A DNA stretch of 64,000 nucleotides from contig CADAOY010000001.1 of assembly GCA_902789665.1 (NCBI GenBank), positions 124,001 through 188,000 on the forward strand, given 5' to 3'. Shown piece by piece: positions 5,301 to 22,931 of the stretch. Every line of letters begins with the position of its first letter. Within the stretch, counting starts at the first letter, position 1. A program made the position numbers and the translations under genes. The notes below the pieces were generated by a model that was not told the origin of the DNA, made no database searches, and saw nothing but the letters and a program-made list of their open reading frames with translations. The DNA comes from an uncultured Lachnospiraceae bacterium (GTDB lineage: Bacteria > Bacillota > Clostridia > Lachnospirales > Lachnospiraceae).

Positions 5301-8300
5301 AATTCTCGTGGCAAACAAATTGTAGAGGAAAAAGTAGAAGAGAAGAAAGAGGCTCCAGTGCCGGAAAAAGAAGAGAAGAAAGAAGAGAAAAAAGAGGCTC
5401 CGGCGCCGGAAAAAGAAGAGAAGAAAGCTGAGAAGAAAAAGGCCGCTGTAAAACCTGGTTTTGAGAATGTATATTCAGATCAAATTAAGGCAAAGAGTTT
5501 TATACCTGATACAAAAATAGCAGGTCAGATTCTGACCGAAGCAGGTATTCCTTTGAGTACTACTAAAAATGGTGAAATAAGCAATGCTTTTATGACTAAA
5601 CTCATTGTAATATATGGCATGGGCCAATTGAAATATTCTCTTGATGATATTCTTAGTATGTCCAAGGAAGATAAATATGAAATAACACAGAAATTCCTTG
5701 ATGATATGAAAGCCCATCCGGTTAAGGCTGATAGTCCTGATGCCGAGAAGAATATTCAGAGACTTGGAGGAATATTCAGTGATGCATTTGGAGTGATTAA
5801 GTCTTCAGAGAATTGTAAATTTACTGATGTTGAATTTTTTGCAAATGATCAGAATTCCATAGATTTTAATTCATCCAAGCTGGAAGGATTAGCCATTATG
5901 TCCAACTTCTGCGATGATTTTTACAAAAAACTTACGAAAATTCAAAAAGAAGATGAAGAAAAGGCTAAGAAAGAAGGTTCACAGCCTGGCATAAAAATAG
6001 CAAGCGCATTTGAGGAGGGTTACGGAAAAGAAGACTTACAGAAAGATCTGCCTATGATGAAGGCAATGTATACACACAGATATGCTGCCCGTGCATTCCT
6101 TGATCCGAAGAGTCTTAATGAGAAAGTGGCTTTTAAGATAGTTGGTACAATTCTTTATTCAAGACTTAAAGGTAAAAGTCTTACAGAAGTGCCGGCTGAA
6201 TACGTGAAGCAGTATGGAAACCTGTATTTAAACAGAGAAACTTTACAGAAACTTCTTGCTAAAGAGCTTAAAGGTTTTGATGAAGAATACTTAAAGAAGA
6301 TTGTTGAATGCAATAATCTTGAAGAAATTAAGAAAGAATCAACTCTTTATAATTACAGAAATCTTTTGAATAAGATATCCAAATACAGCATGTTTGAAAA
6401 ATCAAAGGATGTTAAAGCTGAACTTAAACTGGCGAAGGATGCTTACAGGAAAGAACAGGAAGAAAAGGAACGTCTTGAAGCAGAAAGAAAAGAAGCAGAG
6501 AGAAAGGCTGAAGAAGAAAAGAAGAAATTAGAAGAAGAGGCGAAAAAACAGGCAGAACTTGAAGAAAAGAAAAAGGCAGAAGAAGCCCGTAAAAAGAGAA
6601 TTCAGGACTATGTCAATGACCCTGAGAATATTAAGTATGTAATCAAAATTAATGGTTATGAGAAGAGTACTATTGATGCTGTAAGAGAGAATCTTGAAAA
6701 CAAAAAGAGAAGTTTCGCTGATTTTAAAGAAAGTTATGATGTAGAGAAAACTGAAGGAGATATACTCATTATCGAGAAGTATCTTAATGAAAGAATTGCC
6801 CGTTATGAGAATAACCAGAAGCAGTATGTAAAAGAATATGCAGAAGCAGCCAATTCAAAAGAACTGGATTGCAGACTGTTCCTTAAGGATCTGTTAGGTG
6901 AAGAAAAAGTATATGGCCTCGTTGATTATATCAAAAAGGAATATAAGCAGATTGCCAATGAAAATAATCTTAAATCTGAGTTTGAAGCTTTAAAAACAAA
7001 TCAGGAAAAAATGGATTATTTACTTGCGCTTGCACATAAGTATCCAAAGGCATGGGAGTATAACAAAGAAACCAGAACCACAATTCCAAGTTCCATTAGA
7101 AACTGTGGTAATCTTGAAAAACTTGCAGAGTATTATAACAAGAATCAGGCAGACTTAAATATATGTGAGAAAGTACGTCTTCTTCACAGAATTCGTACTT
7201 TGGAGAAGGCTAATAATCTTTATAACGGAGACTATAATAAAGAGCCAAATGGTCTGATTAATGAAGCACAGATTGAACACAAAGATGGTGCAGTCAGAAT
7301 TCTTGTTGATATTGAAAGAAAACAGACAAGTAATAATGGATGCTGGTCATGTGGCCTGGAAGCTCAGCTTAAGGCAAAAGGTATAAACGTAAATCAGGAA
7401 GAAATCAGAAACTTCAGACCTGATTACAGTGAAAGTAAACTTAATTCAAAGTCATTTAATAATGCGGCAGATGAGATTTATTTATATGACTCCGGAAAAG
7501 ATATTCTGGAAATGTCCGGTGCTGCTCTTGCATTTAAGCCTAATATGATGGTTAGAACTTTCGATATTTATCCTCCTGCACGTGCTCAGGAAGTACTTGG
7601 CGGTGGTGAAATTATCGATGAAGTTGAATACATCCATAATGCAGCAGAAATAGCTCTTAAGAAAATAAAGGAAATAATCGAAGTAGAAAAATCTCCGGTT
7701 TCATTTACTGACGGAAATCATTACTATACCATCACCGGTGTAAACGGAGACAAGGTTGAATATATCGACTCCAACAGACATGGAAGTGTCAGGGAGAAAG
7801 ACTCTCAACAGTTTGTATTATTTTTAAGAGATGTATTTAGAAACGCCAATGGAAATACATATAATATGCAGCTTCAGTGGCTTTCAGAGATGGAACTTTC
7901 TCCGGACGGAAAGACATTCTATAACGTACCAAGTAACTATCTTGAATTAAAAGAAGATGGTTCTTTGAAACTGCCTCCGAATGAAATACTTGAAGATAAT
8001 CCTAATCATTACAAGGCGGACAATGGTAATATCAGACTTCTCCTTGTGGGTGGTAAGGAAGATACTTCATATGACAGATTAAACAGAATCCCACTTGATA
8101 AGGATAATGTTTATATTGAAGAGCAGGCTATTATTCCTAAGAAAATTAATCCTGAATTATTGCGCAGTAAAATGCGCTCAAGAAATGAGAAGAGAAGCGC
8201 AGAATTAGAAGATTACAGACATAATCTTCTTGGCAAAGTAAAGGATAAGTTTGGTACAGAGAATGCCGGCAAAACTTATCAAAAAGATGATGCAGGTATT

Positions 8301-11300
8301 GAGGTCAAATCCGATCTTAAACTTGAAGATGTTGATGCAAATGCAGGATTTGCCAAAGAAGCCAATGACAGTTCACGTCAGGCAATCAAGGATAATAAGG
8401 CAATTAGTGCCGGCAAGCATAAAGTAATAGATATTAAGCGTAAGCAGGACAGAAAAGCAGAAGAAGTTACGCGTTTCAAAAACATTAATGATTTATTTGT
8501 TAATAATAAAGCAGTGGGTGAGAATGGTAAGGATCTTCTTATTTACAAGCCTGGAGCAATTCTGGCATTCAGACTCAGTCTTCTTTATGATAATGCCATG
8601 AGAGTATTTGACTATCTTGACACCGTTGAAAAGAAGGAAAAATACAGAAAATTCATTAATGATATAACAAAGGATTATAAGAAACTGATGGGCAAACTTG
8701 ATCAGCCTGAGAATGCCATTACAGATGAAGTGCGCCCGGATATCTATAAGTTTAATGGATATTTTAAAAATAATAATGATATGTATGATGCCATTATGCT
8801 TATGGAAAAAATAGGTGATAAGTTTACTCTTGGCGAATTTAAGACTCAGAAGAGAAAGTATGCCATTAAGAATAATACAATGAATCAGTATGATCCGACT
8901 CTCCTTGCAAGATGTGTTGAAAACATTAAGTGTTTTTCAGACAAGGAAATGAAGGTAAATATGCTCAAAGCATGTACTGAAAGTCCGGATTATTTTATGG
9001 CAGTTAAAGATTCACTTATGCTTCCTTCATATAATAAGGATGTGCTTGGTAATAAGAACAGAGGTGGTTTTGTAAGCATACCTTATTACTACGATATGTG
9101 CGAAAGCCTGGTTGATTCTTATGACTATGGAACAGAACACGCCATAGATGAAGTAGAAGTAAGACATAAGAATTTTGAGAGATCGATTTCTGAAACTGAC
9201 GCAATGAGAAACCTTCCTTATATCAGAAGTAATTACTATCCAAGTGTGTCAATTCAAAATGCAGAGAATCAGAGAATAAGAGGCATTGAGCATCCGGAAC
9301 TTGTGGAGGAAGAAAAGAGACAGGCAGAACTAAAGAGAGCCGCTGAAATTAAGGCATTTTCCGAAGAAAGCAATTTCCATGTAAATACACTTGGTGATTA
9401 TATTGATGATTTTAATGCAGCCAGGGATATCTTTGTACAGGCAGGATGTCAGGGTAATGTTGGTGAGAAGGAAATTCTTAGTAATGTTATCATCTATGCA
9501 ATGGCTGAGATGGATATGACACCGGCTGAGATTGTGGCAGCATCACCTGAGAAAAAGAAGGAAATCGGAAGAAAACTTTTAGAAGATATCAAGAAGCATC
9601 CGTTCTATAGTGAAGCAACCCTGAAAATGACTGAAAAGGAATTTAAGGAAAGCATTACCTGGTATGGAAAGTTGTACAAGAAGGCACATGATAAGGTCTT
9701 AAATCTTGATGGGCTTATACCAACGGCTGCCGATTGGGGCGATGTTAAGCGAATTACCGAGTTTAGAAAATCACCTAATTATTTGCCGTCATATGTTGTA
9801 CAGATGTTAATAGCGCCTATTGACAGAAATATTTCAAACAAGGTAAAGGGAGAATATAATCCTACCGAATATTCAACATTTGATCTTTTCAAGGAAGGAT
9901 ATGAAGGTACAGTTGATGATTATACCAGAGCTTCTCAGAACTTTAGAATTAACAGATTAGTAAGCTCCGCAGCCGATATTATTTCCAATCCTGAACTTAG
10001 TTCCAGAGTGAGAGTTTTCTATAAGCTCTTTATTGAGGAAGAATTGCTTAAGGAGCATGGAGGCAAAAAGACCGGTGAGGTGATTCCGGAGCGTCTCAAG
10101 TATGAATGGAGTAAAAGAATACAGAATCATTTGAATGAAGTATTCGAGGACGCTGGTTCAATTAATGCTGCATATGAAGGCTTCGCTGAAGATGAAATTA
10201 AGATGTTTATGGAGAACAGCCTTGAAGAACTGGCTATTAAGAATCCTCATCTTGTGTGCAGACTGATTGATAAATCAGCTAATATTCCAGGTTACTCAAC
10301 ATTCGCATCTCTTCGTGATAAGATTACAAAGCAGAAGATGAACACGGATTATTCCCAGGAACTTAAGGCTTATTATGAAGATATTATTGCCAAGAGAAAT
10401 CCTAAGGAAGAGGAAGTGAAAGAAGAGGTTAAGGACGAGGAAATCAAGCCTGAGGAAATCAAGGAAGAAGCCAAGGGCAAGGAAGCAAAAGAAGAACCTA
10501 AACCAGAAGAAATTAAGACTGAAGAAGTTAAGAATATAATTAACGAAGAAGTCAAAGAAGAGATTAAAGAGGAGCCAAAGGAAGAGGCTAAAGAAGAAAT
10601 TAAAGAAGAGCCGAAAGAAGAAGCGAAGGCTACGGTTCCTCCAGTAGTTAATAAGGTTGATGAAGAGGAAAAACAGGAGCAGCCACCGGTGCAGCCGGAA
10701 AAACTTGATGCTGATCCACTTTTGAAGGCAGATTACGTGGCAGCAGCTTACAATTATGAAATCTACAAAATGTGGCGTGATAATATAATTGATGACCTGA
10801 CTGCAATTCGTGACAGACTTACAGAATCTATTAACAACACACAGCATACTTCCGGTATCCTTTTGAATGGAGTAAATAAGTCCATTGAGACCATATCTAA
10901 TCCGGATAAGACGACTAAGGATGTTAATGATGCTCTTATTAACATGTATAAGGCTGCAGAAGACTCCAAAAAGAGGTTAGCTCCTTTTGCAAACCTTGCT
11001 GAAGATGATGAAGATGCATATAAGAAGATATGGTATGATGAGTCGGTTAAATTATTTGACAAATCACAGAAAATATTCTTAGGTTACAGCAATATCAGAA
11101 GATGGGTTAATGAAAGCAGGTTAACCGGTCCTTTAGGTAAAGCATTCAAAGACTGTACGCCTAGGGAAATTGATGATACGCTTACTGATTTAAATGGCAG
11201 ATATAATATGGGAGAAGAGGCAGAGCCGGATGTAGAGACTGTACTTAACCAGTTCTCGAGAGTTTCAAGCACTGCAGTTTCAAGAATGAATCTCCTCGAA

Positions 11301-12152
11301 AGATTAGGAACAAGATTTAATTTCAAGGTCAACCTTAATGCGAACAATATGTCACCTGATGAGGTTGTTAAGCAGGTTAAAACAGGTAAACTTTCATCAT
11401 ATGATCATGCTCTGAGATGTGTAGTTGCCGATTATGTTGCTCAGTTAGTGGATGCAAAGACGGTAAACAGTGATGCCGAAATTCAAAGACTTAATACTGA
11501 AATACATAATGAGAATGCACTTAAGAAAAAAGCCAAAGACTTATCCAAGAATCTTCTGTTTAAAGAAGTTGTCAGAATTAATCCTGATGGATTTGTAAAA
11601 CAGTGGAAAGAAATTGTGGATACGGCTAAGGAACTTAAGGATTATCTTAAGGCAGGCATTAAAAACATGCAGCCTTCAATTCCTGATTTTGTGTTGTATG
11701 GCACAACCAAACTGGCTGAGAATGAGAATTACATTCCAGAGGAAATGGAAGAATTAAAGAATAAAAATGATGACGCGCAAAAGTATTCAAGACTTGCCAA
11801 TGCAGTTGTTTCCAATATTCTGACAGATCCAAAGAATGAGTTACTTCTTCAGTCTGTTGCAGCCGGTAAGATTGACAGAATGGATATGCTCGAAAAGGTT
11901 AATAATTACCTTGAAGACAGACAGGTACTTAAGGATGATTCGCCGATGGGTATGTTGTCGCTTATTAATGTATCAATGAAGGATTGGGAAATTCAGGTTA
12001 TGAAAAATGTAATACCAACAATCAGACCTGCAGAGCTGGAAGGACCGGCACCGGTTCAGAATAACCAGGCAGCTAATCATCAAAACAATAATCATGCAGC
12101 AAATGCCGGTAATAATGCACAGCATAATGCTGCTCATCATCCACATATGTAA
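2367..12152 (+). CDS. Giant modular protein, 3261 residues, unknown function, possible internal cysteine peptidase
   Basis: I do not recognise this protein. It has no signal peptide and no clear membrane helix, so it is probably cytoplasmic or exported by a non-Sec route. A mostly helical module recurs at least four times, at about residues 160-340, 618-835, 1053-1272 and 2352-2557. Each copy has a hydrophobic Y-x-M/L-x-E stretch, then [D/E]-[I/M]-K-x-[H/R]-P (H224-P225, R691-P692, H1117-P1118, H2411-P2412), then W-Y-G-K-L-Y or a relative, and later F-x-E-G-[Y/F]-G. Charged Lys/Glu spacers lie at about 986-1031, 1362-1412 (coiled-coil-like) and 2681-2755. Between them, GCWSCG (C1659) and GNHYYTITG (H1785) followed by D1801 and N1803 give the Cys-His-Asp/Asn order of papain/C39-like peptidases; this assignment is inference. 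The last 30 residues are Asn/Ala/His-rich. The ATG follows CGGAGGAAAA. A strong terminator follows the stop, so it is likely a single-gene unit. Confidence 0.9.
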   Translation: MKDYEINNNSISQIYDLEIIHDRYMGVGFNPANMMMDELYKTSNVFDNIFGRENGKEIIGSSKNNDKDLREYMKGLLKVKGVPFYTESDVDRYCKAYILYAMTEKNIQLTYLSDGKTKKFYDYPGLDHKKDKLNIRDFVNKKSVSCSLFYDMKLALVPSGAYEKRILADAGIDPSNENEIESMFTTWYVHKYGFNFADLGYLQYLSLPQLKGLASEFFEEIRKHPVTKDDIDSDTVKENVKWYANIIRNVFDIYEEQFHMPGRTSLEYNNIMNQGGMEEDSFAYAANYASGMKTFLDDMFVRSGAGSEKNVYSIDYLNEFLLGYGKSVDSFANQKNIIDIMSVIDKNQKKFCDKKAVENLNKEMSTLYKVKLSDIEKNKDLNKLAKSFENIENPDYEFQNESVNNEKGSKISDEIDKIDKRLFPEFDEIKDIIPEDISKIDSEILSKAADVFDEIFAGLTLHEKKCLNANNMNGIEELFEHNGVRIADEVQKLIDDNKIPADKKSEYTKARVLYFYASKRLLKNESGQEFESTLDYNTLEYDSEGNLHTDSEYHGFNIIEDSLKSRSYISTTAENKDKAQEIKATEDKQWKAEEKKDAVNPSRIRNTTFIHFYVAKNFFTDKEKETFANDFAVSKKSAGTSLLRLYALYLLAEKDITLEQLREIYNNSDNPDNKKLLDSLKADFFSEIKKRPVKDPDNMTKEDYIANLRWYGKLYRTAEEKAVNMGYDLGNPDLIEDYDRARASLNSSQEQVRYYLHISTERSYLGKENKPNKHGVPLDYFAEGFGGKQTLSDFDDLSYIVKMKKVFSDMGRFGYPANKDQAVFKVVYRTLGEFITDPLFEGINNIKDLSRKDIRELSAKIKEANTADGYMTIDILNEQEKNKIIDLKGGSLKKNYPEIYKKVMTIWAPEAPYLTNLGNKAKTEFGIEIPQYNDLPDELKKKVDKIQEVSNKSDECDKKLEEEAKAYEQYSGYGIGWLNSRGKQIVEEKVEEKKEAPVPEKEEKKEEKKEAPAPEKEEKKAEKKKAAVKPGFENVYSDQIKAKSFIPDTKIAGQILTEAGIPLSTTKNGEISNAFMTKLIVIYGMGQLKYSLDDILSMSKEDKYEITQKFLDDMKAHPVKADSPDAEKNIQRLGGIFSDAFGVIKSSENCKFTDVEFFANDQNSIDFNSSKLEGLAIMSNFCDDFYKKLTKIQKEDEEKAKKEGSQPGIKIASAFEEGYGKEDLQKDLPMMKAMYTHRYAARAFLDPKSLNEKVAFKIVGTILYSRLKGKSLTEVPAEYVKQYGNLYLNRETLQKLLAKELKGFDEEYLKKIVECNNLEEIKKESTLYNYRNLLNKISKYSMFEKSKDVKAELKLAKDAYRKEQEEKERLEAERKEAERKAEEEKKKLEEEAKKQAELEEKKKAEEARKKRIQDYVNDPENIKYVIKINGYEKSTIDAVRENLENKKRSFADFKESYDVEKTEGDILIIEKYLNERIARYENNQKQYVKEYAEAANSKELDCRLFLKDLLGEEKVYGLVDYIKKEYKQIANENNLKSEFEALKTNQEKMDYLLALAHKYPKAWEYNKETRTTIPSSIRNCGNLEKLAEYYNKNQADLNICEKVRLLHRIRTLEKANNLYNGDYNKEPNGLINEAQIEHKDGAVRILVDIERKQTSNNGCWSCGLEAQLKAKGINVNQEEIRNFRPDYSESKLNSKSFNNAADEIYLYDSGKDILEMSGAALAFKPNMMVRTFDIYPPARAQEVLGGGEIIDEVEYIHNAAEIALKKIKEIIEVEKSPVSFTDGNHYYTITGVNGDKVEYIDSNRHGSVREKDSQQFVLFLRDVFRNANGNTYNMQLQWLSEMELSPDGKTFYNVPSNYLELKEDGSLKLPPNEILEDNPNHYKADNGNIRLLLVGGKEDTSYDRLNRIPLDKDNVYIEEQAIIPKKINPELLRSKMRSRNEKRSAELEDYRHNLLGKVKDKFGTENAGKTYQKDDAGIEVKSDLKLEDVDANAGFAKEANDSSRQAIKDNKAISAGKHKVIDIKRKQDRKAEEVTRFKNINDLFVNNKAVGENGKDLLIYKPGAILAFRLSLLYDNAMRVFDYLDTVEKKEKYRKFINDITKDYKKLMGKLDQPENAITDEVRPDIYKFNGYFKNNNDMYDAIMLMEKIGDKFTLGEFKTQKRKYAIKNNTMNQYDPTLLARCVENIKCFSDKEMKVNMLKACTESPDYFMAVKDSLMLPSYNKDVLGNKNRGGFVSIPYYYDMCESLVDSYDYGTEHAIDEVEVRHKNFERSISETDAMRNLPYIRSNYYPSVSIQNAENQRIRGIEHPELVEEEKRQAELKRAAEIKAFSEESNFHVNTLGDYIDDFNAARDIFVQAGCQGNVGEKEILSNVIIYAMAEMDMTPAEIVAASPEKKKEIGRKLLEDIKKHPFYSEATLKMTEKEFKESITWYGKLYKKAHDKVLNLDGLIPTAADWGDVKRITEFRKSPNYLPSYVVQMLIAPIDRNISNKVKGEYNPTEYSTFDLFKEGYEGTVDDYTRASQNFRINRLVSSAADIISNPELSSRVRVFYKLFIEEELLKEHGGKKTGEVIPERLKYEWSKRIQNHLNEVFEDAGSINAAYEGFAEDEIKMFMENSLEELAIKNPHLVCRLIDKSANIPGYSTFASLRDKITKQKMNTDYSQELKAYYEDIIAKRNPKEEEVKEEVKDEEIKPEEIKEEAKGKEAKEEPKPEEIKTEEVKNIINEEVKEEIKEEPKEEAKEEIKEEPKEEAKATVPPVVNKVDEEEKQEQPPVQPEKLDADPLLKADYVAAAYNYEIYKMWRDNIIDDLTAIRDRLTESINNTQHTSGILLNGVNKSIETISNPDKTTKDVNDALINMYKAAEDSKKRLAPFANLAEDDEDAYKKIWYDESVKLFDKSQKIFLGYSNIRRWVNESRLTGPLGKAFKDCTPREIDDTLTDLNGRYNMGEEAEPDVETVLNQFSRVSSTAVSRMNLLERLGTRFNFKVNLNANNMSPDEVVKQVKTGKLSSYDHALRCVVADYVAQLVDAKTVNSDAEIQRLNTEIHNENALKKKAKDLSKNLLFKEVVRINPDGFVKQWKEIVDTAKELKDYLKAGIKNMQPSIPDFVLYGTTKLAENENYIPEEMEELKNKNDDAQKYSRLANAVVSNILTDPKNELLLQSVAAGKIDRMDMLEKVNNYLEDRQVLKDDSPMGMLSLINVSMKDWEIQVMKNVIPTIRPAELEGPAPVQNNQAANHQNNNHAANAGNNAQHNAAHHPHM
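5322..5458 (+). repeat. Lys/Glu/Pro-rich low-complexity repeat inside the giant gene
   Basis: Codes for repeated KKEAPxPEKEEKK units, with two nearly identical copies around 5344-5375 and 5392-5423. Repeats of this kind can change length by slippage. It separates the second and third helical modules. Confidence 0.7.
10409..10630 (+). repeat. Glu/Lys-rich low-complexity repeat inside the giant gene
   Basis: Codes for about 74 residues built from EEVK, EEIK and EEPKEEAK units, with a short exact duplication of the EEIKEEPKEEAK type near its end. It separates the fourth module from the C-terminal helical region. Confidence 0.7.
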
Positions 12153-14762: not shown

Positions 14763-14791
14763 TTGACATTATTTCAAAATAAGTTTATAAT
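14763..14791 (+). promoter_or_regulatory. Consensus sigma-A promoter of the aromatic amino-acid operon
   Basis: Exact TTGACA (14763-14768) and exact TATAAT (14786-14791) are separated by 17 bases. Transcription should start near 14798, giving a leader of about 290 bases before tyrA that holds a leader peptide and an attenuator. Confidence 0.93.
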
Positions 14792-14848
14792 TCAAAGCGT
14801 TAAAGTATTAAAGTGAATCCATAAAGATTTAACTAAAAGGAACACAAA

Positions 14849-14950
14849 ATGAAGAAGTTAATTACAAAAGCAAATGAATACTTTTATTTTTACTTCGACT
14901 TTAGCCGCTTTTATTTTGGGGGCTATTATTTTGGTGCTAATGAAAGTTAA
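14849..14950 (+). CDS. Phe/Tyr-rich leader peptide of the aromatic operon
   Basis: A 33-codon ORF starts at an ATG preceded by AAAAGGA at good spacing and ends with TAA at 14948-14950. After MKKLITKANE come 18 residues of which seven are Phe and six are Tyr (YFYFYFDFS, then RFYFGGYYF). Such a run just downstream of a strong promoter and upstream of tyrA-pheA and the shikimate genes is the hallmark of attenuation leaders such as the enterobacterial pheA leader, in which ribosome stalling reports shortage of the charged tRNA. A second reading frame over the same bases (14874-14999) could encode a 41-residue membrane peptide but has no ribosome binding site, so the leader-peptide reading is preferred. 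Confidence 0.75.
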   Translation: MKKLITKANEYFYFYFDFSRFYFGGYYFGANES

Positions 14951-14952
14951 GT

Positions 14953-15047
14953 CTGAGAGTTATGTTGTGGCTCTTGGATACAGAGCCGAAAAGAAATAAT
15001 GAATTCGTGATTTTTAGTAAGCTCTGTTGTTATGACAGAGCTTTTTT
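14953..15047 (+). promoter_or_regulatory. Transcription attenuator controlled by the leader peptide
   Basis: Five segments can pair in alternative ways. Segment 0 CTGAGAG (14953-14959) pairs with CTCTTGG (14971-14977) using two wobbles. Segment 1 GGCTCT (14969-14974) pairs with AGAGCC (14982-14987). Segment 2 ACAGAGC (14980-14986) pairs perfectly with segment 3 GCTCTGT (15021-15027). Segment 3, as AAGCTCTGT (15019-15027), pairs with segment 4 ACAGAGCTT (15035-15043), which runs into six Ts. The proposed logic is inference. A ribosome reaching the stop codon covers segment 0, so 1:2 and the 3:4 terminator form. A ribosome stalled on Phe or Tyr codons leaves 0:1 to form, freeing 2 to pair with 3 and prevent termination. 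Confidence 0.7.
15019..15047 (+). terminator. Intrinsic terminator of the attenuator
   Basis: A nine-base perfect stem AAGCTCTGT (15019-15027) / ACAGAGCTT (15035-15043) with a seven-base loop; the T run spans 15042-15047. It stands 39 bases before the tyrA start, where a terminator makes sense only as a regulated one. Confidence 0.88.
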
Positions 15048-15085
15048 ATGTGTATTATTTAAGATCCTTTTAAGGAGGTTTTATA

Positions 15086-15946
15086 ATGAACTGGATTAAT
15101 GAAGCCAATGTGCTTATTGTAGGTTTGGGACTTATGGGAGGAAGTTATGCCATGGGTCTTCGTAAACTGGGCTTTAGGGTAACAGCAATTGATACCAATG
15201 AATCATCAATTATCTACGCCAAGGAAAATGGAATCATTGATGAAGGAAGTACCAAAGCAAGTCCTGATATTATTAATGCTGCGGACGCGGTGATTTTTGC
15301 CCTGTATCCTACTACATTTAAGAAATGGATTGTGGAGAATCAGAAACACTTCAGACCGGGAATATTTATTACTGATGTTACAGGTGTTAAGAAGGATGTG
15401 GTATATGAGATTCAGTCAGTATTAAGAGATGATGTGGAATTCATTGCATCACATCCGATGGCTGGTAGGGAGACATCAGGTGTTGAGCACAGTGATAATA
15501 AAATGTTTATCGGAGCAAACTACATTATTACACCGACTGATAAAAATACTGCAGAAGGAATTAAGTGGTGTGGTGAACTTGGAAGGCTTCTGGGTGTTGG
15601 AAACATATCAGTGCTTTCACCGGAAGAACATGATGAGATGATAGGTTTTGTATCGCAGCTTACTCACGTGATTGCGGTATCATTAATGACATGTTCAGAT
15701 AATGTACATCTTAAGGATTATACAGGAGACTCATTCAGGGATTTAACCAGAATTGCAAATATTAATGATAAGATGTGGAGTGAACTGTTCCTTATGAATA
15801 AGGATATTCTGATGAAGGAAATCGATGTTTTTGTGAATGAAATGAATGGCATTAAACAGATGCTTGAAGATAATGACAGAGAAGGACTTCAGGAAAAGAT
15901 GAGACTTAGTACTCAAAGAAGAAGTCTGTTCAACAAGAAAGCTTAA
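15086..15946 (+). CDS. tyrA: Prephenate dehydrogenase
   Basis: Oxidatively decarboxylates prephenate to 4-hydroxyphenylpyruvate, the branch step to tyrosine. The N-terminal Rossmann fold shows VGLGLMGGSYAMGLR at about residues 12-26, and the substrate domain shows ASHPMAGRE at about 121-129, with the His expected at the active site. The helical C-terminal dimerisation domain includes FVSQLTHVIAVSL and RDLTRIANINDKMW. At 286 residues it lacks an ACT domain and a fused chorismate mutase, which is instead on PheA. The start follows AAGGAGG. It is the first structural gene after the attenuator and lies ten bases before pheA. Confidence 0.95.
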   Translation: MNWINEANVLIVGLGLMGGSYAMGLRKLGFRVTAIDTNESSIIYAKENGIIDEGSTKASPDIINAADAVIFALYPTTFKKWIVENQKHFRPGIFITDVTGVKKDVVYEIQSVLRDDVEFIASHPMAGRETSGVEHSDNKMFIGANYIITPTDKNTAEGIKWCGELGRLLGVGNISVLSPEEHDEMIGFVSQLTHVIAVSLMTCSDNVHLKDYTGDSFRDLTRIANINDKMWSELFLMNKDILMKEIDVFVNEMNGIKQMLEDNDREGLQEKMRLSTQRRSLFNKKA

Positions 15947-15956
15947 GGAGGCACAA

Positions 15957-17090
15957 ATGGACAGTAATGATTTGAATTCAATGAATGAAGAGACTGAAGA
16001 CAATGAACTTCTTTTGGCCAGATCTGAGATCAATGAAGTTGATGAGAAGATGGCTGAACTCTTTGTAAAGAGAATGGATGCTGTATACAGAATTGCTGAA
16101 TACAAGAAGCATCGCGGACTTCCTGTTGTAGATGAAAGAAGAGACAAGGAAGTTATTGCAAGAAATCTTAATTTTATAAAAGAGCCGAAGCTTCAGCCTT
16201 TCTATGCTGAATTTATGTATAACAATATAAATGTTTCCAAGAAATACCAAAAGGGTATAGTGGAAGGCATGAAGGTTGCATACTGCGGAATAAAAGGTGC
16301 CTTTGCATATATTGCAGCAAAGAGAATATTCCCAACAGCAGACCTGGTTTCTTATCCTGATTTTCAGTCAGCATATGATTCGGTTGAAAGAGGAGAAACG
16401 GAATGTGCAGTTCTTCCACTTGAGAACAGTTACGCCGGTGAGGTCGGAAGCGTAACAGACATGATGTTTGCCGGTTCTTTATATGTAAATGCTCTTTATA
16501 CATATGAGATTAATCAGTGCTTAATGGGAACACAGGATGCCACAAAGGAAGATATTAAGAGTGTATATTCTCATCCACAGGCTCTTGATCAGTGCCAGGT
16601 TTATATTACGAAGCACGGATACAGTATTAAGCAGGCAGTAAATACTGCTGTGGCTGCCAAGGCTGTTGCAGATGACAATGACAAAACAGTAGCTGCCATT
16701 GCAAGTGAAGAAGCGGCTGAATTATATGGTCTTAAAATCTTAGAGAAGAATATTAATGAGAGCAATAAGAACAGTACAAGATTCGCGGTACTCTCAAGAA
16801 GCCCGATGCCTCAGGATGAAAGTAATAAATATAATCATATAATGCTGATGTTTACAGTTAAGAATGAGGCCGGAGCTCTGGCGAAGGCGATGAATGTTTT
16901 AGGTGCTTATGGATATAACATGAGCGCTGTAAGATCAAGGCCACTTAAGTCATTACCATGGCAGTATTACTTCTATATTGAAGCAAGTGGCGATGGAACT
17001 TTGGGAAATGAAAAGAAAATGCTTAATGCTTTGTCAGCAACCTGCGACAGACTTAAACTGCTTGGCAGGGTTGAATGGAATGAACAGTAA
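15957..17090 (+). CDS. pheA: Chorismate mutase / prephenate dehydratase (P-protein)
   Basis: Bifunctional branch enzyme to phenylalanine. Residues about 18-95 are an AroQ-type chorismate mutase (LARSEINEVDEKMAELFVKR, KKHRGLPVVDERRD). About 105-275 is the prephenate dehydratase domain, with GIKGAFAYIAA, VLPLENSYAGEVG and the substrate-binding NSTRFAVLSR. A C-terminal ACT domain at about 290-370 carries EAGALAKAMNVLGAYGYN and RSRPLKSLPWQYYFYIE, so phenylalanine feedback is expected. The first dehydratase motif reads GIKGAFAYIAA rather than the usual GxxGTFS, a modest divergence. It starts ten bases after tyrA with an AAGGAGG site. Confidence 0.95.
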   Translation: MDSNDLNSMNEETEDNELLLARSEINEVDEKMAELFVKRMDAVYRIAEYKKHRGLPVVDERRDKEVIARNLNFIKEPKLQPFYAEFMYNNINVSKKYQKGIVEGMKVAYCGIKGAFAYIAAKRIFPTADLVSYPDFQSAYDSVERGETECAVLPLENSYAGEVGSVTDMMFAGSLYVNALYTYEINQCLMGTQDATKEDIKSVYSHPQALDQCQVYITKHGYSIKQAVNTAVAAKAVADDNDKTVAAIASEEAAELYGLKILEKNINESNKNSTRFAVLSRSPMPQDESNKYNHIMLMFTVKNEAGALAKAMNVLGAYGYNMSAVRSRPLKSLPWQYYFYIEASGDGTLGNEKKMLNALSATCDRLKLLGRVEWNEQ

Positions 17091-17117: not shown

Positions 17118-18146
17118 ATGGATATGGATTTCGAAAGAAAACTGGCAATACCTATGGAGGTTAAGGAGATGTATCCTCTTAATGGTGAGATTGCCGAGAT
17201 AGTTGAGAAGAAGATTGCTGAAGTTAAAAGCATAATTGCAGGGGAATCAGATAAACTTCTTATGGTTATTGGACCTTGTTCAGCAGATAATGAGGACAGC
17301 GTTATTGATTATATTTCAAGACTTATTCCTGTACAGGAGAAGATTAAGGACAAGATTATGATTGTTCCAAGGATCTATACAAATAAGCCAAGAACAACAG
17401 GTGCTGGATACAAGGGACTTGTTCATCAGCCGGATCCAAGCAAGAAGCCTGACTTATTTAAGGGTATTATTGCTACAAGAGAATTACATATGAGAGCAGT
17501 TCAGGAGACAGGTTTTGCATGCGCAGATGAAATGTTATATCCTGAAAACCACAAGTACCTTGATGACCTTCTTGCATATGTGGCAGTTGGCGCAAGATCA
17601 GTTGAGAATCAGCAGCACCGACTTACAGCTTCAGGTCTTGGTATTGCCTGCGGTATGAAGAATCCAACAAGTGGTGATAATTCAGTTATGCTTAATGCAA
17701 TTATGGCAGCACAGAATCCTCATACATTCATCTACAGAGGATGGGAAGTACACAGTCATGGTAATCCATATGCTCATGCAATACTTCGTGGTTATACCAA
17801 CAAACATGGTGAGAATCAGCCGAACTACCACTATGAAGAATTAATCACACTCTGTAATCAGTATGATGAGAGAGGCCTTGAGATGCCTGCAATTGTTGTG
17901 GATACAAATCACTCCAATTCAAATAAGAATCCATTTGAACAGCCAAGAATCATCAAGGAAGTTCTTCATTCATGCAGACATAATGAAACAGTTAAGAAGC
18001 ACATTAAAGGGTTCATGGTTGAAAGTTATATCGAAGACGGATGCCAGAAGATTGGCGAAGGCGTATACGGTAAGTCAATTACTGACCCATGTCTTGGATG
18101 GGAAAAAACCGAGAAGATGTTGTACGAAATTGCAGATTTGTTATAA
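17118..18146 (+). CDS. 3-deoxy-7-phosphoheptulonate (DAHP) synthase, type I
   Basis: Condenses phosphoenolpyruvate and erythrose-4-phosphate in the first step of the shikimate pathway. The 342-residue protein is of the AroF/G/H type: MVIGPCSADN at about residues 48-57, PRIYTNKPRTTGAGYKGL at about 85-102, ARSVENQQHRLTASGLG, ACGMKNPTSGD and a metal-site region VDTNHSNSNK at about 260-269. No fused chorismate mutase or ACT domain is present, so the feedback mode cannot be told. The start follows TAAGGAGG. A perfect 10-base inverted repeat separates it from aroB. Confidence 0.95.
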   Translation: MDMDFERKLAIPMEVKEMYPLNGEIAEIVEKKIAEVKSIIAGESDKLLMVIGPCSADNEDSVIDYISRLIPVQEKIKDKIMIVPRIYTNKPRTTGAGYKGLVHQPDPSKKPDLFKGIIATRELHMRAVQETGFACADEMLYPENHKYLDDLLAYVAVGARSVENQQHRLTASGLGIACGMKNPTSGDNSVMLNAIMAAQNPHTFIYRGWEVHSHGNPYAHAILRGYTNKHGENQPNYHYEELITLCNQYDERGLEMPAIVVDTNHSNSNKNPFEQPRIIKEVLHSCRHNETVKKHIKGFMVESYIEDGCQKIGEGVYGKSITDPCLGWEKTEKMLYEIADLL

Positions 18147-18152
18147 TTAATA

Positions 18153-18180
18153 TAAGGCGTAGATATAATGCTACGCCTTA
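18153..18180 (+). terminator. Intra-operon hairpin between DAHP synthase and aroB
   Basis: A perfect ten-base inverted repeat TAAGGCGTAG (18153-18162) / CTACGCCTTA (18171-18180) with an eight-base loop. It is followed by GGTTTTG, not a full T run, so partial termination or an mRNA-stabilising or processing site is more likely than full termination. Confidence 0.45.
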
Positions 18181-18202: not shown

Positions 18203-19264
18203 ATGAGAGAAACAGTTATATCACGTACGTCCGCAGGAGATGTGGAGATAATTATAGACAAAGGGATAGACACAGGCGCTGAGATACTTAAGAAACATAA
18301 ACCATGTCACGTGCTTATTGTAAGTGATGATTCAGTTTATGCCCTTTATGGTGAGAAGACAAAGGAAAGTATAGAGGCAGCCGGATTTAATGTTGATACC
18401 TTTGTATTTCCACATGGTGAGGAAAGTAAGAATATTGATACTTTAAATTCCATTTTGGAATATGCTGCATCCAAAGAGATGTCCAGAACAGATTTGTTTG
18501 TAGCTCTTGGTGGCGGCGTTGTAGGTGATATAACAGGTTTTGCTTCTGCAGTATTTTTAAGAGGTGTTGATTATGTGCAGGTGCCAACCACAGTACTGGC
18601 AGCAGTTGATTCTTCAGTTGGCGGCAAGACAGCAGTTGATCTTAATGCCGGTAAGAACTTAATCGGGGCTTTTCACCAGCCGCTTGAGGTGCTTCTTGAT
18701 GTGGATGTATTTGATACTCTGCCGGAGGAGATTTTTACAGAAGGACTGGCAGAAGCAATTAAGTATGGAATGATAAAAGATAAGAAATTATATGATCTTT
18801 TTAAAGATAATGACATAGACTCACTTGATATGATACCTGTATGCAAAAGGTGCATAGAGATAAAGGCCGATGTGGTTGAAAAAGATGAGTTTGACAATGG
18901 TGAGAGAAGACTGCTTAACTTTGGTCATACTCCGGGGCATGCAGTTGAGATTTTAAGTAAGTTTGGAATATCACATGGACATGCGGTAGCAATAGGCATG
19001 GTTATAATGACAAGACTTTCTGAAAGAACCGGTGAAATCCCTCAGGGCTCAACGGATGAGTTTATTGAAGTGCTTAAGAAATATAATCTTCCTACAGAAT
19101 GTGGTTATAACAACAAAGAACTTACAACTCACAGCAAAGTTGATAAGAAGAGAAAAGGTTCAAAGATAGGACTTGTAATGCTTCACAGTATAGGCAAAGC
19201 CTATGTGAAGGAAACAGATGTGGATGATATAGAACGTCTCTATGCAATTGGACTTAATATGTAA
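18203..19264 (+). CDS. aroB: 3-dehydroquinate synthase
   Basis: Converts DAHP to 3-dehydroquinate, the second shikimate step, using NAD and a divalent metal. Motifs include FPHGEESKN at about residues 68-76, GGGVVGDITGFASAVFLRGV at about 103-122, PTTVLAAVDSSVGGKTAVD at about 128-146, GKNLIGAFHQP and the metal-ligand region NFGHTPGHAVE at about 237-247. It has 353 residues, the usual length. The ATG follows AAAGAGGTG and the next gene begins nine bases after its stop. Confidence 0.97.
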   Translation: MRETVISRTSAGDVEIIIDKGIDTGAEILKKHKPCHVLIVSDDSVYALYGEKTKESIEAAGFNVDTFVFPHGEESKNIDTLNSILEYAASKEMSRTDLFVALGGGVVGDITGFASAVFLRGVDYVQVPTTVLAAVDSSVGGKTAVDLNAGKNLIGAFHQPLEVLLDVDVFDTLPEEIFTEGLAEAIKYGMIKDKKLYDLFKDNDIDSLDMIPVCKRCIEIKADVVEKDEFDNGERRLLNFGHTPGHAVEILSKFGISHGHAVAIGMVIMTRLSERTGEIPQGSTDEFIEVLKKYNLPTECGYNNKELTTHSKVDKKRKGSKIGLVMLHSIGKAYVKETDVDDIERLYAIGLNM

Positions 19265-19272
19265 AGGTTAGT

Positions 19273-20550
19273 ATGAGAGTAAAGGTAACAGGAACAATTA
19301 CAAATCCATATGCTGTAGCAATCAGTTCCAAAAGTTATGTGCACAGAATGCTTATTGGCGCGGCGCTGTCTGGAAAGAGTTGTATTCTTAAAAGCAATAT
19401 TATTTCCAAGGATATGAAGGCGACAATGGAGTGCCTTAATAATCTTGGAGCAGATATTGAAATAACGGACGAAGGCTTTAGGGTTAATAGCGGCGTTCAA
19501 AAGTGCGGTAAGGTTGCAATAGACTGTAATGAAAGTGGTTCAACTCTAAGATTTATGATTCCACTCGTTTCATACCTTTGCAGTGAAACGACAATTACAG
19601 GAAAGGGTAAACTTCCTGAAAGACCAAATGGAGCGCTAACTGAAACATTAAGAAGTAACGGGGCAGTTATTGATTCAGATTTTCTGCCAATGAATATAAG
19701 TGGCAATCTTATGGCTGGAACATATGAGATAGCAGGTAATATTTCATCTCAGTACATAACCGGATTATTGCTGACACTGCCGCTGTTAGATGGCGATTCA
19801 AAGATTGTACTTACATCCGACTTACAGAGTAAGCCTTATGTTGATATAACAATTGAAGTATTAAAACTTTTTGGAATAAAGGTTAATGAGAAAGATTACG
19901 GATACGAGATTCCTGGTAATCAGTCATATGAGGCGCCATCTGTAATGGAGGCAGAAGGTGACTGGTCCAATGGTGCTTATCTTTTATCAATGGGCGCTGT
20001 ATGTGGTAGTTTAAGAGTATCCAATCTTAATGGCGCAAGTATTCAGGGCGACAGAGAGATAGTTAATATTATTAAAGGCTTCGGTTTAAGTGTACACTCT
20101 CTCTCAAGTGAAACAGAGGTAAAACAGGAAGAATGGAAATCAGTAGACCAGGATGTAATGCAGATTCCTGACCTTCTGCCAGCGATTGCTGTTTTAGCTT
20201 TAAAAGGAAATAAGGATTCAATATTCAGAAATGTATCAAGACTCAGAATTAAAGAGTCTGACAGAATAGAGTCTGTAAGTAAGATAATAAGTGCTTTTGG
20301 CGGCGTCGCAAAGAGTATTAAAAATGGTGATGAGGAAGATTTTATTGTAAGCCCTGTAAAGAGTGATGAGAATTCAGAAGTGGAAATAGATTCATATAAC
20401 GATCACCGCATAGTAATGGCGGCAGTGATTGCACATCTTGCAACAGGCAGGGATGTAATAATAAATGGTTTTGAAGCAGTTGATAAGTCATATCCTTCAT
20501 TTATGCAGGTATGCAGAGATATGGGAATGACATTGGAAGTGCTTGTTTAA
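19273..20550 (+). CDS. aroA: 3-phosphoshikimate 1-carboxyvinyltransferase (EPSP synthase)
   Basis: Transfers the enolpyruvyl group of phosphoenolpyruvate to shikimate-3-phosphate. The 425-residue protein shows AISSKSYVHRMLIGAALSG near residue 16, NESGSTLRFMIPLVS at about 86-100, LPERPNGALTETLRSNGA, then QYITGLLLTLPLL, GDWSNGAYLLS, RLRIKESDRI and a C-terminal DHRIVMAAVIA. The second motif departs from the typical LPxRP-hxxL sequence only slightly. It sits tightly between aroB and aroC, with AAAGG before its start. Confidence 0.96.
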   Translation: MRVKVTGTITNPYAVAISSKSYVHRMLIGAALSGKSCILKSNIISKDMKATMECLNNLGADIEITDEGFRVNSGVQKCGKVAIDCNESGSTLRFMIPLVSYLCSETTITGKGKLPERPNGALTETLRSNGAVIDSDFLPMNISGNLMAGTYEIAGNISSQYITGLLLTLPLLDGDSKIVLTSDLQSKPYVDITIEVLKLFGIKVNEKDYGYEIPGNQSYEAPSVMEAEGDWSNGAYLLSMGAVCGSLRVSNLNGASIQGDREIVNIIKGFGLSVHSLSSETEVKQEEWKSVDQDVMQIPDLLPAIAVLALKGNKDSIFRNVSRLRIKESDRIESVSKIISAFGGVAKSIKNGDEEDFIVSPVKSDENSEVEIDSYNDHRIVMAAVIAHLATGRDVIINGFEAVDKSYPSFMQVCRDMGMTLEVLV

Positions 20551-20564
20551 GGAAAGGTAGAAAT

Positions 20565-21647
20565 ATGTCTTTTATTCTTGGTAACAATGTGAAGATGGAA
20601 GTTACGGGCGCATCTCACGCTCCTAAGATTACTGTTAAATTATGCGGTATTCCAAAGGGTGTGAATATTGATATGTTTGAGATTGAAGAACTTCTTTTAA
20701 GACGCGCCGGCGGTAATGCAACATATACAACAAAGAGAAAAGAAGCAGACAAGCCTGTTATTGTGGCAGGAATTGTGGATGGTGTTACAGACGGAAATCC
20801 TATTGAGGCTGAGTTCATCAATGCCAATCAAAGAAGTCAGGATTATAATAATCTTAAGTTTGTACCACGTCCTTCACATGCAGACTATGCAGCATATACC
20901 AAGTATAAGGGTGAGATTGACCTTGCAGGCGGCGGATTCTTCTCAGGCAGAATGACTCTTCCAATGTGTTTTGCAGGCGCGATATGCAGACAGATGCTTG
21001 AAGAAAAAGGCATCTTAATCGGAGCACATATTGCATCAGCAGGTAATATTGAAGACGACAGATACGACCCGGTAGATGCTGACCTTGAAATAAATGCAGA
21101 CTGCAATCTTCCAGTGCTTAATAAAGAGCAGGGAGAAAAAATGGAAGAGCTCATGATTAAAACCGCCGAGGAAGGAGATTCCATCGGAGGAGTAATTGAG
21201 TGCAAAATCACCGGCCTTCCAACAGGTCTTGGCGATCCGATATATGACAGCGTTGAAAGTAAGCTTTCCTATGGCATGTTTGGAATACCTGCGGTTAAGG
21301 GAATAGAATTCGGCGCAGGTTTTGACATAACAAAACATTACGGAAGTGAAATGAATGACTCTTTTAAACTGGATGGAGAAAATGTGGTTACAACCACGAA
21401 TAATTCCGGCGGCATTCAGGGCGGATTAACTAATGGTATGCCGGTTGTATTCAGAGTAGCAATCAAACCTACACCATCCATATATAAAGAACAGCGCTCT
21501 GTTGATCTGGTAAGTAAGGAAGAAGTTCCACTTCAGATTAAAGGAAGACATGACAGCTGCATAGTTCCAAGAGCAGTACCTTGTGTTGAGGCTATGGCTG
21601 CATTAATTATGTATGATATACTGCTTGATGAGCAGAATAATTTATAA
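20565..21647 (+). CDS. aroC: Chorismate synthase
   Basis: Forms chorismate from EPSP with reduced flavin. The ATG at 20565 is chosen because GGAAAGG stands just before it and the family N-terminus begins there; the open frame extends further upstream into the end of aroA but without support. The 360-residue protein has GASHAPKITVKLCGIPKG, LRRAGGNATYTTKRKE, RPSHADYAAYTKYKG, GGGFFSGRMTLP and NNSGGIQGGLTNGMPVVFRV. Several signatures differ from the classical ones (RPSHAD for RPGHAD, GGGFFSGRMT for GGRSSARET), so it belongs to a diverged branch of the family, but the whole fold and context support the call. Confidence 0.93.
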   Translation: MSFILGNNVKMEVTGASHAPKITVKLCGIPKGVNIDMFEIEELLLRRAGGNATYTTKRKEADKPVIVAGIVDGVTDGNPIEAEFINANQRSQDYNNLKFVPRPSHADYAAYTKYKGEIDLAGGGFFSGRMTLPMCFAGAICRQMLEEKGILIGAHIASAGNIEDDRYDPVDADLEINADCNLPVLNKEQGEKMEELMIKTAEEGDSIGGVIECKITGLPTGLGDPIYDSVESKLSYGMFGIPAVKGIEFGAGFDITKHYGSEMNDSFKLDGENVVTTTNNSGGIQGGLTNGMPVVFRVAIKPTPSIYKEQRSVDLVSKEEVPLQIKGRHDSCIVPRAVPCVEAMAALIMYDILLDEQNNL

Positions 21648-21659
21648 ATCAGGTGTGAG

Positions 21660-22931
21660 ATGAGTAAATATTTTTTAATAGGGGAAAAACTCGGACATTC
21701 TTTTTCGGTTGTATTACATCAGTCTTTTGGAAATCAGGGATATTATCTTAAGGAGATTCCAAAAAATGAAATTGATGATTTCTTTAAGGAGGCTGATTAC
21801 GACGGTATTAATGTAACAATTCCATATAAAGAAGTTGCAATGAAATACTGTATTCCAAATGAAACATCAAAGACAATTGGATGTGTAAATACCCTGGTAA
21901 AAAAAGATGGTCAGGTATATGGATATAATACAGACTATCTTGGATTTATGTATATGACAGTTGATGCAGGTATAGAGATGCTTGGAAAAAGAGTGCTGGT
22001 ACTTGGAAGCGGAGGAACTTCCAAGACGGCAACCTACTCCTGTGATGCCATGGGTGCCAAAGAGGTTATAATAATGTCCAGGTCTGGCAAGAGTTTTGAT
22101 ATGGATATTTCCATACCGATTATCAGCGCCACATATGAAGAAACTGATAAGTACCTGGATGTGGATATTATTGTTAATACAACTCCGGTTGGAATGTATC
22201 CTAATAATCAGGCAATGCCTATTGATATAAATAAATTCACAAACCTTAGCGGTGTAATAGATGTTATTTATAATCCGCTTAATACCAGGATTATTCTTGA
22301 AGCAAAGAAGAAGGGTATTCCTTCAGTGTCAGGACTTGCCATGCTGGTGGCACAGGCTTACTATGCAGAGGAACTTTTCTTTGGCAGGGAAATAATTCTT
22401 GGCAATAAGGAAATAAATGATAAAATAAAGAAAGTATATGAAGTAGTCAAAAAAGATAAAGAAAACTTTGTTTTAATCGGTATGCCTGGAAGCGGCAAAA
22501 GCACCATCTCGGAAGCCATGAGTACATACCTTGGAAGAGAGGTTTTAGATACTGATGATTTGTTTACCAAAAACTTTGGAATGACACCGGGTGAGTGCAT
22601 AACAAAGGAAGGTGAACCGGCATTTCGTGATAAGGAAGCAGAGATAATTAAGAGAGTATCTGCCAATACAGGTGTAATTATATCAACAGGCGGCGGCGCT
22701 GTCACAAGAAGAGAGAATATTGATAATCTTTGCGGTAATGGTATTTTTATCTACCTTAAGAGACCGCTTGAAAAACTCTCGACTGAAGGCAGACCTTTAT
22801 CTCAGAAGATGGGTGTTGAAACCATATATAACAACAGAAAAATCATATATGAATCAATTGCAGATATAACAGTGGATGTGGATGATGATCCGGATGTAAC
22901 AATGCAAAGGCTTATGGAACAGGTTAAGTAG
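21660..22931 (+). CDS. aroEK: Fused shikimate dehydrogenase - shikimate kinase
   Basis: A 423-residue two-domain enzyme. Residues about 1-255 are shikimate dehydrogenase: GEKLGHSFSVVLHQ, INVTIPYKEVAMKYC with the catalytic Lys, VLGSGGTSKTATY for NADP binding, VNTTPVGMYPN and the C-terminal SGLAMLVAQAYYA. After a linker, residues about 268-423 are shikimate kinase, with Walker A GMPGSGKST, VLDTDDLF, FRDKEAEI, STGGGAVTRR and the lid residues EGRPLS. The fusion joins steps four and five of the pathway, reducing dehydroshikimate and then phosphorylating the product. The gene is preceded by a short AGGTGTGAG site 12 bases after aroC. Confidence 0.95.
   Translation: MSKYFLIGEKLGHSFSVVLHQSFGNQGYYLKEIPKNEIDDFFKEADYDGINVTIPYKEVAMKYCIPNETSKTIGCVNTLVKKDGQVYGYNTDYLGFMYMTVDAGIEMLGKRVLVLGSGGTSKTATYSCDAMGAKEVIIMSRSGKSFDMDISIPIISATYEETDKYLDVDIIVNTTPVGMYPNNQAMPIDINKFTNLSGVIDVIYNPLNTRIILEAKKKGIPSVSGLAMLVAQAYYAEELFFGREIILGNKEINDKIKKVYEVVKKDKENFVLIGMPGSGKSTISEAMSTYLGREVLDTDDLFTKNFGMTPGECITKEGEPAFRDKEAEIIKRVSANTGVIISTGGGAVTRRENIDNLCGNGIFIYLKRPLEKLSTEGRPLSQKMGVETIYNNRKIIYESIADITVDVDDDPDVTMQRLMEQVK

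Follow-up and report, generated by a model that had tools for sequence, protein, structure and literature searches.

Leader-peptide attenuation requires a ribosome close behind the polymerase, and in Firmicutes much of the control of amino acid genes is held to lie with T-boxes, which work without a leader peptide. In the pheL-pheA attenuator of Escherichia coli K-12, a leader peptide with Phe codons and no Tyr codons, a set of competing stems, and an intrinsic terminator precede an aromatic gene. Leader attenuators for His, Lys, and branched-chain amino acids have already been reported in Firmicutes (PMC2965389, PMC9413887, PMC4833913, PMC5794164), and in Bacillus subtilis the polymerase is reported to outrun the ribosome (PMC7858274). 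Our literature search returned no Phe/Tyr leader attenuators in Clostridia—a weak negative, given its poor coverage of subscription papers—and such attenuators seem undescribed in this lineage.

The stretch of DNA analyzed here, 64,000 nucleotides from an uncultured Lachnospiraceae bacterium (hereafter, the window), contains a locus with the same components as pheL-pheA and with both Phe and Tyr codons in its leader. We consider it probable (roughly 0.85) that positions 14763-15047 act as a ribosome-mediated transcription attenuator with an extra relay segment following the stop codon (segment 0), and that it would control the genes tyrA-pheA-aroF-aroB-aroA-aroC-aroEK in response to how much charged tRNA for Phe and Tyr is available. 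A further-reaching reading, to which we give somewhat less than even odds, is that through segment 0 only arrival of the ribosome at the stop would count, rather than its position in the codon run (and no translation may read as starvation), and that the locus would belong to a hitherto undescribed group of Phe/Tyr attenuators that regulate aromatic operons, differing in gene order, across Lachnospiraceae and in part of the other Clostridia.

The leader region and the aromatic operon

A preliminary description of this DNA had claimed an exact TTGACA-17-TATAAT promoter, a Shine-Dalgarno-led 33-codon ORF in which 7 Phe and 6 Tyr fall within 18 residues, and a U-tract terminator upstream of tyrA, and all three were borne out in the 323-base stretch 14763-15085 (Table 1). 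The aromatic run occupies residues 11-28 of the putative leader peptide (MKKLITKANEYFYFYFDFSRFYFGGYYFGANES, as translated from the ORF), the terminator stem spans 15019-15043 with its U-tract ending at 15047, and tyrA starts at 15086. When the 340 nt 5′ of tyrA were dinucleotide-shuffled 20000 times, no Shine-Dalgarno-led ORF arose with an F/Y score that reached this level. The locus brings together a short ORF whose frequent codons are those for the amino acids that the operon produces (its genes encode prephenate dehydrogenase, prephenate dehydratase, and shikimate enzymes) and an intrinsic terminator placed ahead of the first gene; in folding models only, it also has a mutually exclusive antiterminator that depends on ribosome position and is weak at equilibrium.

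Table 1. Features of the leader and of the downstream genes, in window coordinates
Feature	Coordinates	Strand	Basis or remarks
Sigma-70-type promoter, TTGACA-17-TATAAT	14763..14791	+	12/12 consensus; 0/29 sites differ in sister species
Shine-Dalgarno and spacer of leader ORF	14837..14848	+	AAGGAACACAAA just 5′ of ATG; 14835-14848 identical in sister species
Phe/Tyr leader peptide ORF (putative), 33 codons, stop codon 14948-14950	14849..14950	+	Shuffle test, profile; 1/102 sites changed in sister species, synonymous
Segment 0	14951..14963	+	Partner 14967-14979; predicted reachable by ribosome on stop codon; nascent-RNA fold
Segment 1	14967..14979	+	Partner segment 0, or 14968-14974 with 14982-14988; folding
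Segment 2	14980..14988	+	Partner segment 1 (pre-emptor) or segment 3 (antiterminator); folding
Segment 3, 5′ arm of terminator	15019..15028	+	Terminator search, folding
Segment 4 and U-tract, 3′ arm of terminator	15034..15047	+	Terminator search, folding
tyrA, prephenate dehydrogenase	15086..15946	+	PF02153, PF20463
pheA, chorismate mutase-prephenate dehydratase	15957..17090	+	PF01817, PF00800
aroF, DAHP synthase of aroFGH type	17118..18146	+	PF00793, TIGR00034
aroB, 3-dehydroquinate synthase	18203..19264	+	PF01761
aroA, EPSP synthase	19273..20550	+	PF00275
aroC, chorismate synthase	20568..21647	+	PF01264; frame open from 20511, 20568 picked as start
aroE-aroK fusion, shikimate dehydrogenase and kinase	21660..22931	+	PF08501, PF01202

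The seven genes are collinear on one strand 3′ of the leader, an arrangement suggesting that the leader may control all of them. A palindrome at 18153-18180, between aroF and aroB, can form a perfect hairpin of 10 bp around an 8-nt loop, followed by a weak T-rich tail; it is present with one loop change in the sister species (G022) and may end or process the transcript midway and divide the operon. A WYL-domain regulator (PF13280; 22955-23944), 23 nt 3′ of aroEK, may be part of the operon. Elsewhere in the window, a 3261-aa ORF (2367-12152) precedes glmS and was judged by eye to be rich in Lys and Glu.

Conservation was assessed in the sister species, which encodes an identical leader peptide. 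Across the ORF, segments 0-2, and the terminator, only 1 of 171 sites differs, a synonymous change, versus 45 of 858 sites in tyrA (Fisher p = 0.0037); the spacer between segments 2 and 3 differs at 5 of 28 sites, and the 5′ untranslated region carries 2 differences in 42 sites and a gap. An orthologue lacking the aromatic run or the stems had been named in advance as evidence against the attenuator, and G022 instead keeps the run and segments 0-4; this stem geometry is found only in these two genomes. Between terminator and tyrA, the sister species also carries a repeated, partly palindromic element of about 150 bp (L002:1325-1478), with 15 matches in the source genome (G000) and 9 in G022, fragments and self-complementary matches included; its presence leaves the switch intact.

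We also weighed a reading in which the terminator acts constitutively, transcription of tyrA comes mainly from a promoter 3′ of 15047, and the ORF is either a relic or encodes a small protein with a separate function. Equilibrium folding of the full RNA, which prefers the terminator, would agree with this, as would a promoter-like match (10/12) that overlaps the tyrA start at 15059-15087, but transcription from that match would initiate inside tyrA, 3′ of its Shine-Dalgarno sequence. Moreover, a small protein would have no need of segments 0-2, which are identical in the sister species, and F/Y leaders precede three operon types in the genus; we therefore regard this explanation as very improbable.

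Alternative stems and ribosome position

Folding recovered the alternative stems of the five RNA segments originally proposed, while the 0:1 stem proved longer than first described, with 13 bp and a 3-nt loop (14951-14963 with 14967-14979). At -13.2 kcal/mol it is stronger than the 1:2 stem (14968-14974 with 14982-14988; -10.2 kcal/mol). The 2:3 stem (14980-14986 with 15021-15027) adjoins 0:1, and 15019-15028 pairs with 15034-15043 to form 3:4. The 99 nt 3′ of the stop codon have a folding z of -4.62, with none of 200 shuffles as low.

We propose that these stems would act as follows. When Phe and Tyr are plentiful, the ribosome would complete the leader peptide, pause at the stop codon, and cover segment 0; segments 1 and 2 would then pair, leaving segment 3 free, and hairpin 3:4 would stop transcription 5′ of tyrA. 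When either amino acid is short, the ribosome would stall in the Phe/Tyr run, 18-69 nt 5′ of the stop, and 0:1 would pair; segment 2 would pair alongside it with segment 3, the terminator would be hindered, and the operon would be transcribed. A ribosome whose A site holds the stop codon should have a footprint reaching to about +11 and would therefore cover segment 0, whereas one in the Phe/Tyr run would not. The antiterminator strand begins 30 nt downstream of the stop, beyond what such a ribosome could cover directly, and segment 0 would bridge the distance.

Predicted folds of growing transcripts are consistent with this scheme: in those starting at 14936-14951, 0:1 forms first and 0:1 plus 2:3 is the best fold at 15027-15034, while RNA that is free only from 14963 forms 1:2 until 15022, passes through mixed folds at 15027-15034, and ends as 1:2 plus 3:4. 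We then used a simple home-made co-transcriptional population model of folding (hereafter, the kinetic model), in which the antiterminator reached 0.53-0.94 for 12 of the 13 ribosome edges placed between 14834 and 14955—the exception being 14900, at 0.08—and 0.00 at all three edges from 14958 on. Shifting the start of free RNA from +5 to +8 relative to the stop lowered the antiterminator from 0.94 to 0.00, in line with the claim of the preliminary description that the position of the stop codon decides which hairpin forms. Across nine rate settings, the antiterminator held at 0.44-0.99 with a stalled ribosome versus 0.00-0.02 with the ribosome at the stop; in the latter state the terminator ranged from 0.22 to 0.97, below 0.5 in five of the nine, with the remainder of the RNA in a third fold, figures that may undercount late terminators given that the model halts at the last base of the hairpin. 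Among 37 shuffles of the stop-to-terminator stretch, none lost at least 0.8 of antiterminator between the stalled and stop states, and two lost at least 0.5.

At equilibrium, by contrast with the model of growing RNA, the finished transcript switches weakly, by 2.1 kcal/mol, with 9 of 60 shuffles as strong (3.1 kcal/mol and 6 of 60 for the sister leader), and the full RNA prefers the terminator for every start from 14910 to 14963. The switch, if real, therefore needs folding during transcription.

These results also bear on whether the locus is a plain attenuator of the E. coli type, in which a ribosome stalled on the Phe/Tyr codons would itself cover the first segment and segment 0 would have no role. 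The E. coli pheA control behaves as this type in the equilibrium scan, and in pheA leaders of the Oscillospiraceae type, coding GCGGGC can pair with GCTCG just 3′ of it (96% of 75 cells paired, with no covariation). Segment 1 of the window, however, starts 17 nt after the stop codon, beyond a ribosome in the codon run, and the model fold flips only when free RNA starts at least +8 from the stop. A plain mechanism thus appears unlikely here, and we favor a role for segment 0 as a relay.

Related leaders in the genus and beyond

Directly 5′ of tyrA, an F/Y leader was found only in the window and the sister species; elsewhere in the genus tyrA is internal in its operon, and the idea that missing leaders before other tyrA genes refute the attenuator was dropped once operon starts were examined. 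F/Y leaders precede operons of three different gene orders in the genus: tyrA-first, type I-beta DAHP-synthase-first (6/6 of the genomes having the enzyme, among 31; e.g., MSRFVNFFFTYFYFYFIKQFNKVSLSCN), and pheA-first (9/11 congener regions, made up of 6/7, 2/3, and L323; e.g., MNAIGNNSKLNNGFYYFIQAYFYVSLFAFYFSKNNNGRTE). The fourth order, tyrA-aroB-aroC, has none in five congeners. The Phe/Tyr richness expected of related leaders is present, together with terminators, in the DAHP-synthase-first and pheA-first orders. Searching the 31 genomes with the leader DNA itself gave a convincing E-value for the sister species only, with six others at E 0.001-0.008. Separately, four congeners with aroA-tyrA-aroF order have sub-cut-off T-box matches downstream of aroF, at distances of about 50-600 nt (G003:C5:17584, G016:C111:17457, G020:C152:16233, and G005:C20:48275), so that control by leader peptide and control by T-box may coincide there.

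Among DAHP synthases of the family (146 places found, with 90 upstream stretches examined plus 6 of the genus), 29 of 96 stretches pass p ≤ 0.01 with 200 shuffles each, versus about 1 expected; six of the 29 are from the genus. None of loci L197-L248 passes, and leaders are therefore confined to the nearer DAHP synthases. We scanned 32 leaders for structure, leaving out L195 (4 F/Y in 12) and adding L166, L180, and L196 (p 0.055, 0.04, and 0.02) as well as L020. The ddG was positive in 31 of the 32, and 25 of 31 were equalled by at most 3 of 60 shuffles, L189 being set aside for its misplaced terminator. The exception, L162, also has a far antiterminator strand (+28) but fails the equilibrium test. 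Most of these leaders have the antiterminator 5′ strand inside the ORF, 3′ of the F/Y run, and although sequences differ among leaders it complements the loop and the 3′ arm of the terminator (GTTTCTCTGT/ACAGAGAAAC in L153, TTTGCTATG with CATAGCAGA in L190, and CACTGCA with TGCAGTG in L161); a ribosome finishing the peptide would cover this strand.

For pheA, 46 of 80 named loci were used and 45 genomes searched (named Clostridia, Ruminococcus, Oscillospiraceae, and Lachnospiraceae MAG records), giving 47 places and 30 examined upstream stretches, of which 23 have a leader, one is broken (L333), and six have none; the leaders of L336 and the distant L346 were scored by eye. An RF-centered motif is common to 21 of the 23, and 14 contain ARFYAG. 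Against a profile of 20 of these leaders, which defines an ARFYAGFY type here, the window peptide scores 17.0 bits versus 11.5 for the best of 5000 composition shuffles, and it is plausibly of the same stock. We discarded the idea that all the leaders belong to one sequence family, with DAHP-synthase leaders and pheA leaders of the genus at or below 11.1 bits on this profile.

Structural signal in the pheA leaders was mixed: ddG was positive in 28/28 and equalled by at most 3 of 60 shuffles in only 14/28, in a scan that picked the terminators of L332, L339, L343, L351, and L352 wrongly or in part. In an alignment of 15 leaders (excluding L329, L332, L334 (motif misaligned), L341, L351, L352 (near copies), and the window), the antiterminator is paired in 92.7% of cells (24.8-55.6% when slid), with both-sided change in 1 of 12 pairs only, and the terminator covaries at 3 of 10 pairs, as high in 1 of 500 shuffles. 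Many pheA leaders keep the motif GCYCGRA-GTAACAG, with the stop codon before or inside it, and arrival at the stop codon leading to termination may be the common logic of the relatives' leaders. The kinetic model gave varied outcomes for individual relatives: L155 fits (terminator 0.28 mid-run, 0.01 at the last codon, 1.00 at the stop), L157 fits in part (0.99, 0.01, and 1.00, respectively), as does L250 (0.00 at two stalls, 1.00 at the last Tyr, 0.55 at the stop), and L345 and L350 go against the scheme, with terminators of 0.15 and 0.05 at the stop and, in L350, 0.42-0.91 at stalls.

An RNA model of the pheA leaders, from codon run to terminator, placed its best match to the window correctly but weakly (15.2 bits, E 0.048, ending at 14955; next match 13.4), and a scan of the source genome with it returned no match. 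Of 391 genomes of the class, scanned with strict filters, 24 gave a match at E ≤ 0.01, strong only in G548; the RNA model of this leader type is not widespread in the class. Two tandem Phe-rich leader ORFs with terminators were also seen at L363:1441-1900 (RNA-model matches of 76.5 and 53.7 bits), 5′ of a phenylacetate-CoA ligase-like gene whose best NCBIfam matches are PaaK models, below cut-offs; some rumen bacteria make Phe from phenylacetate, and this gene may therefore be Phe-controlled. Codon patterns proved uninformative as a search tool: YFYFY matched in 272 of 397 family genomes, with the backward control commoner, and a looser pattern in two genomes was likewise outnumbered by its backward control.

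Comparison with described regulators

T-box leaders (RF00230) resemble the window in exerting terminator control over amino acid genes. Matches occur in 31/31 genomes of the genus, the source included, 30 of them above cut-off; L199 is one DAHP-synthase upstream stretch with a T-box. There is no RF00230 match at the leader locus, the four in the source genome all lying outside the window. We give very little credence to control of the terminator by another metabolite- or protein-binding RNA, the F/Y ORF being incidental. Sub-threshold Rfam matches to PyrR (14966-15050; 22 bits, gathering 54, E 0.84) and, over the terminator, to a cyanobacterial sRNA (14999-15045; 25.2 bits, gathering 35.7, E 0.0071) would point that way, but every Rfam match in the window stays below the gathering score of its family. 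Conservation of the ORF and the repeated occurrence of F/Y-rich ORFs 5′ of aromatic genes also speak against this explanation. Pfam and NCBIfam have no entry matching the leader, and some of the relatives' similar switches are likewise uncatalogued.

If Phe/Tyr leaders are conserved controls in Clostridia, transcription-translation coupling there would be close enough to serve control, and these leaders would offer ready reporters with which to measure it. The leaders would also give a testable regulator for the aromatic operons of gut and rumen bacteria.

The window resembles the His leader attenuators of Firmicutes in having a leader peptide, terminator, and antiterminator in a Gram-positive (PMC2965389, PMC9413887); those act on another amino acid and other genes, and the likeness is one of described components. 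For E. coli pheA, the equilibrium scan favored the terminator by 10.3 kcal/mol with no ribosome, 0.0 with a stalled one, and 17.3 at the stop, as known, an opposition of stalled and stop states that it has in common with the window, and the kinetic model gave terminators of 0.19 mid-run and 1.00 both at the last Phe and at the stop. The sister leader fits the scheme in the same model (terminator 0.75 with the ribosome at the stop, against 0.08, 0.18, and 0.64 in three stalled positions). Without a ribosome, the model has E. coli terminate (0.92) and the window not (0.11), with the sister in between (0.59), such that absence of translation would leave the switch on in the window but not clearly in the sister. 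This sister value, together with the strong RNA-model matches in G548 only, is why we hold the further-reaching reading, with stop-codon arrival as the decisive event and a wider set of such attenuators, at lower odds. E. coli pheA switches at a boundary +1 to +7 from the stop, and its stalls fall immediately next to that boundary, whereas the window would read both Phe and Tyr and has a relay segment after the stop. On our best reading, then, the mechanism would be the known one, ribosome-mediated attenuation, and what would be new is the extra relay segment, in a lineage from which no such leaders seem to have been described.
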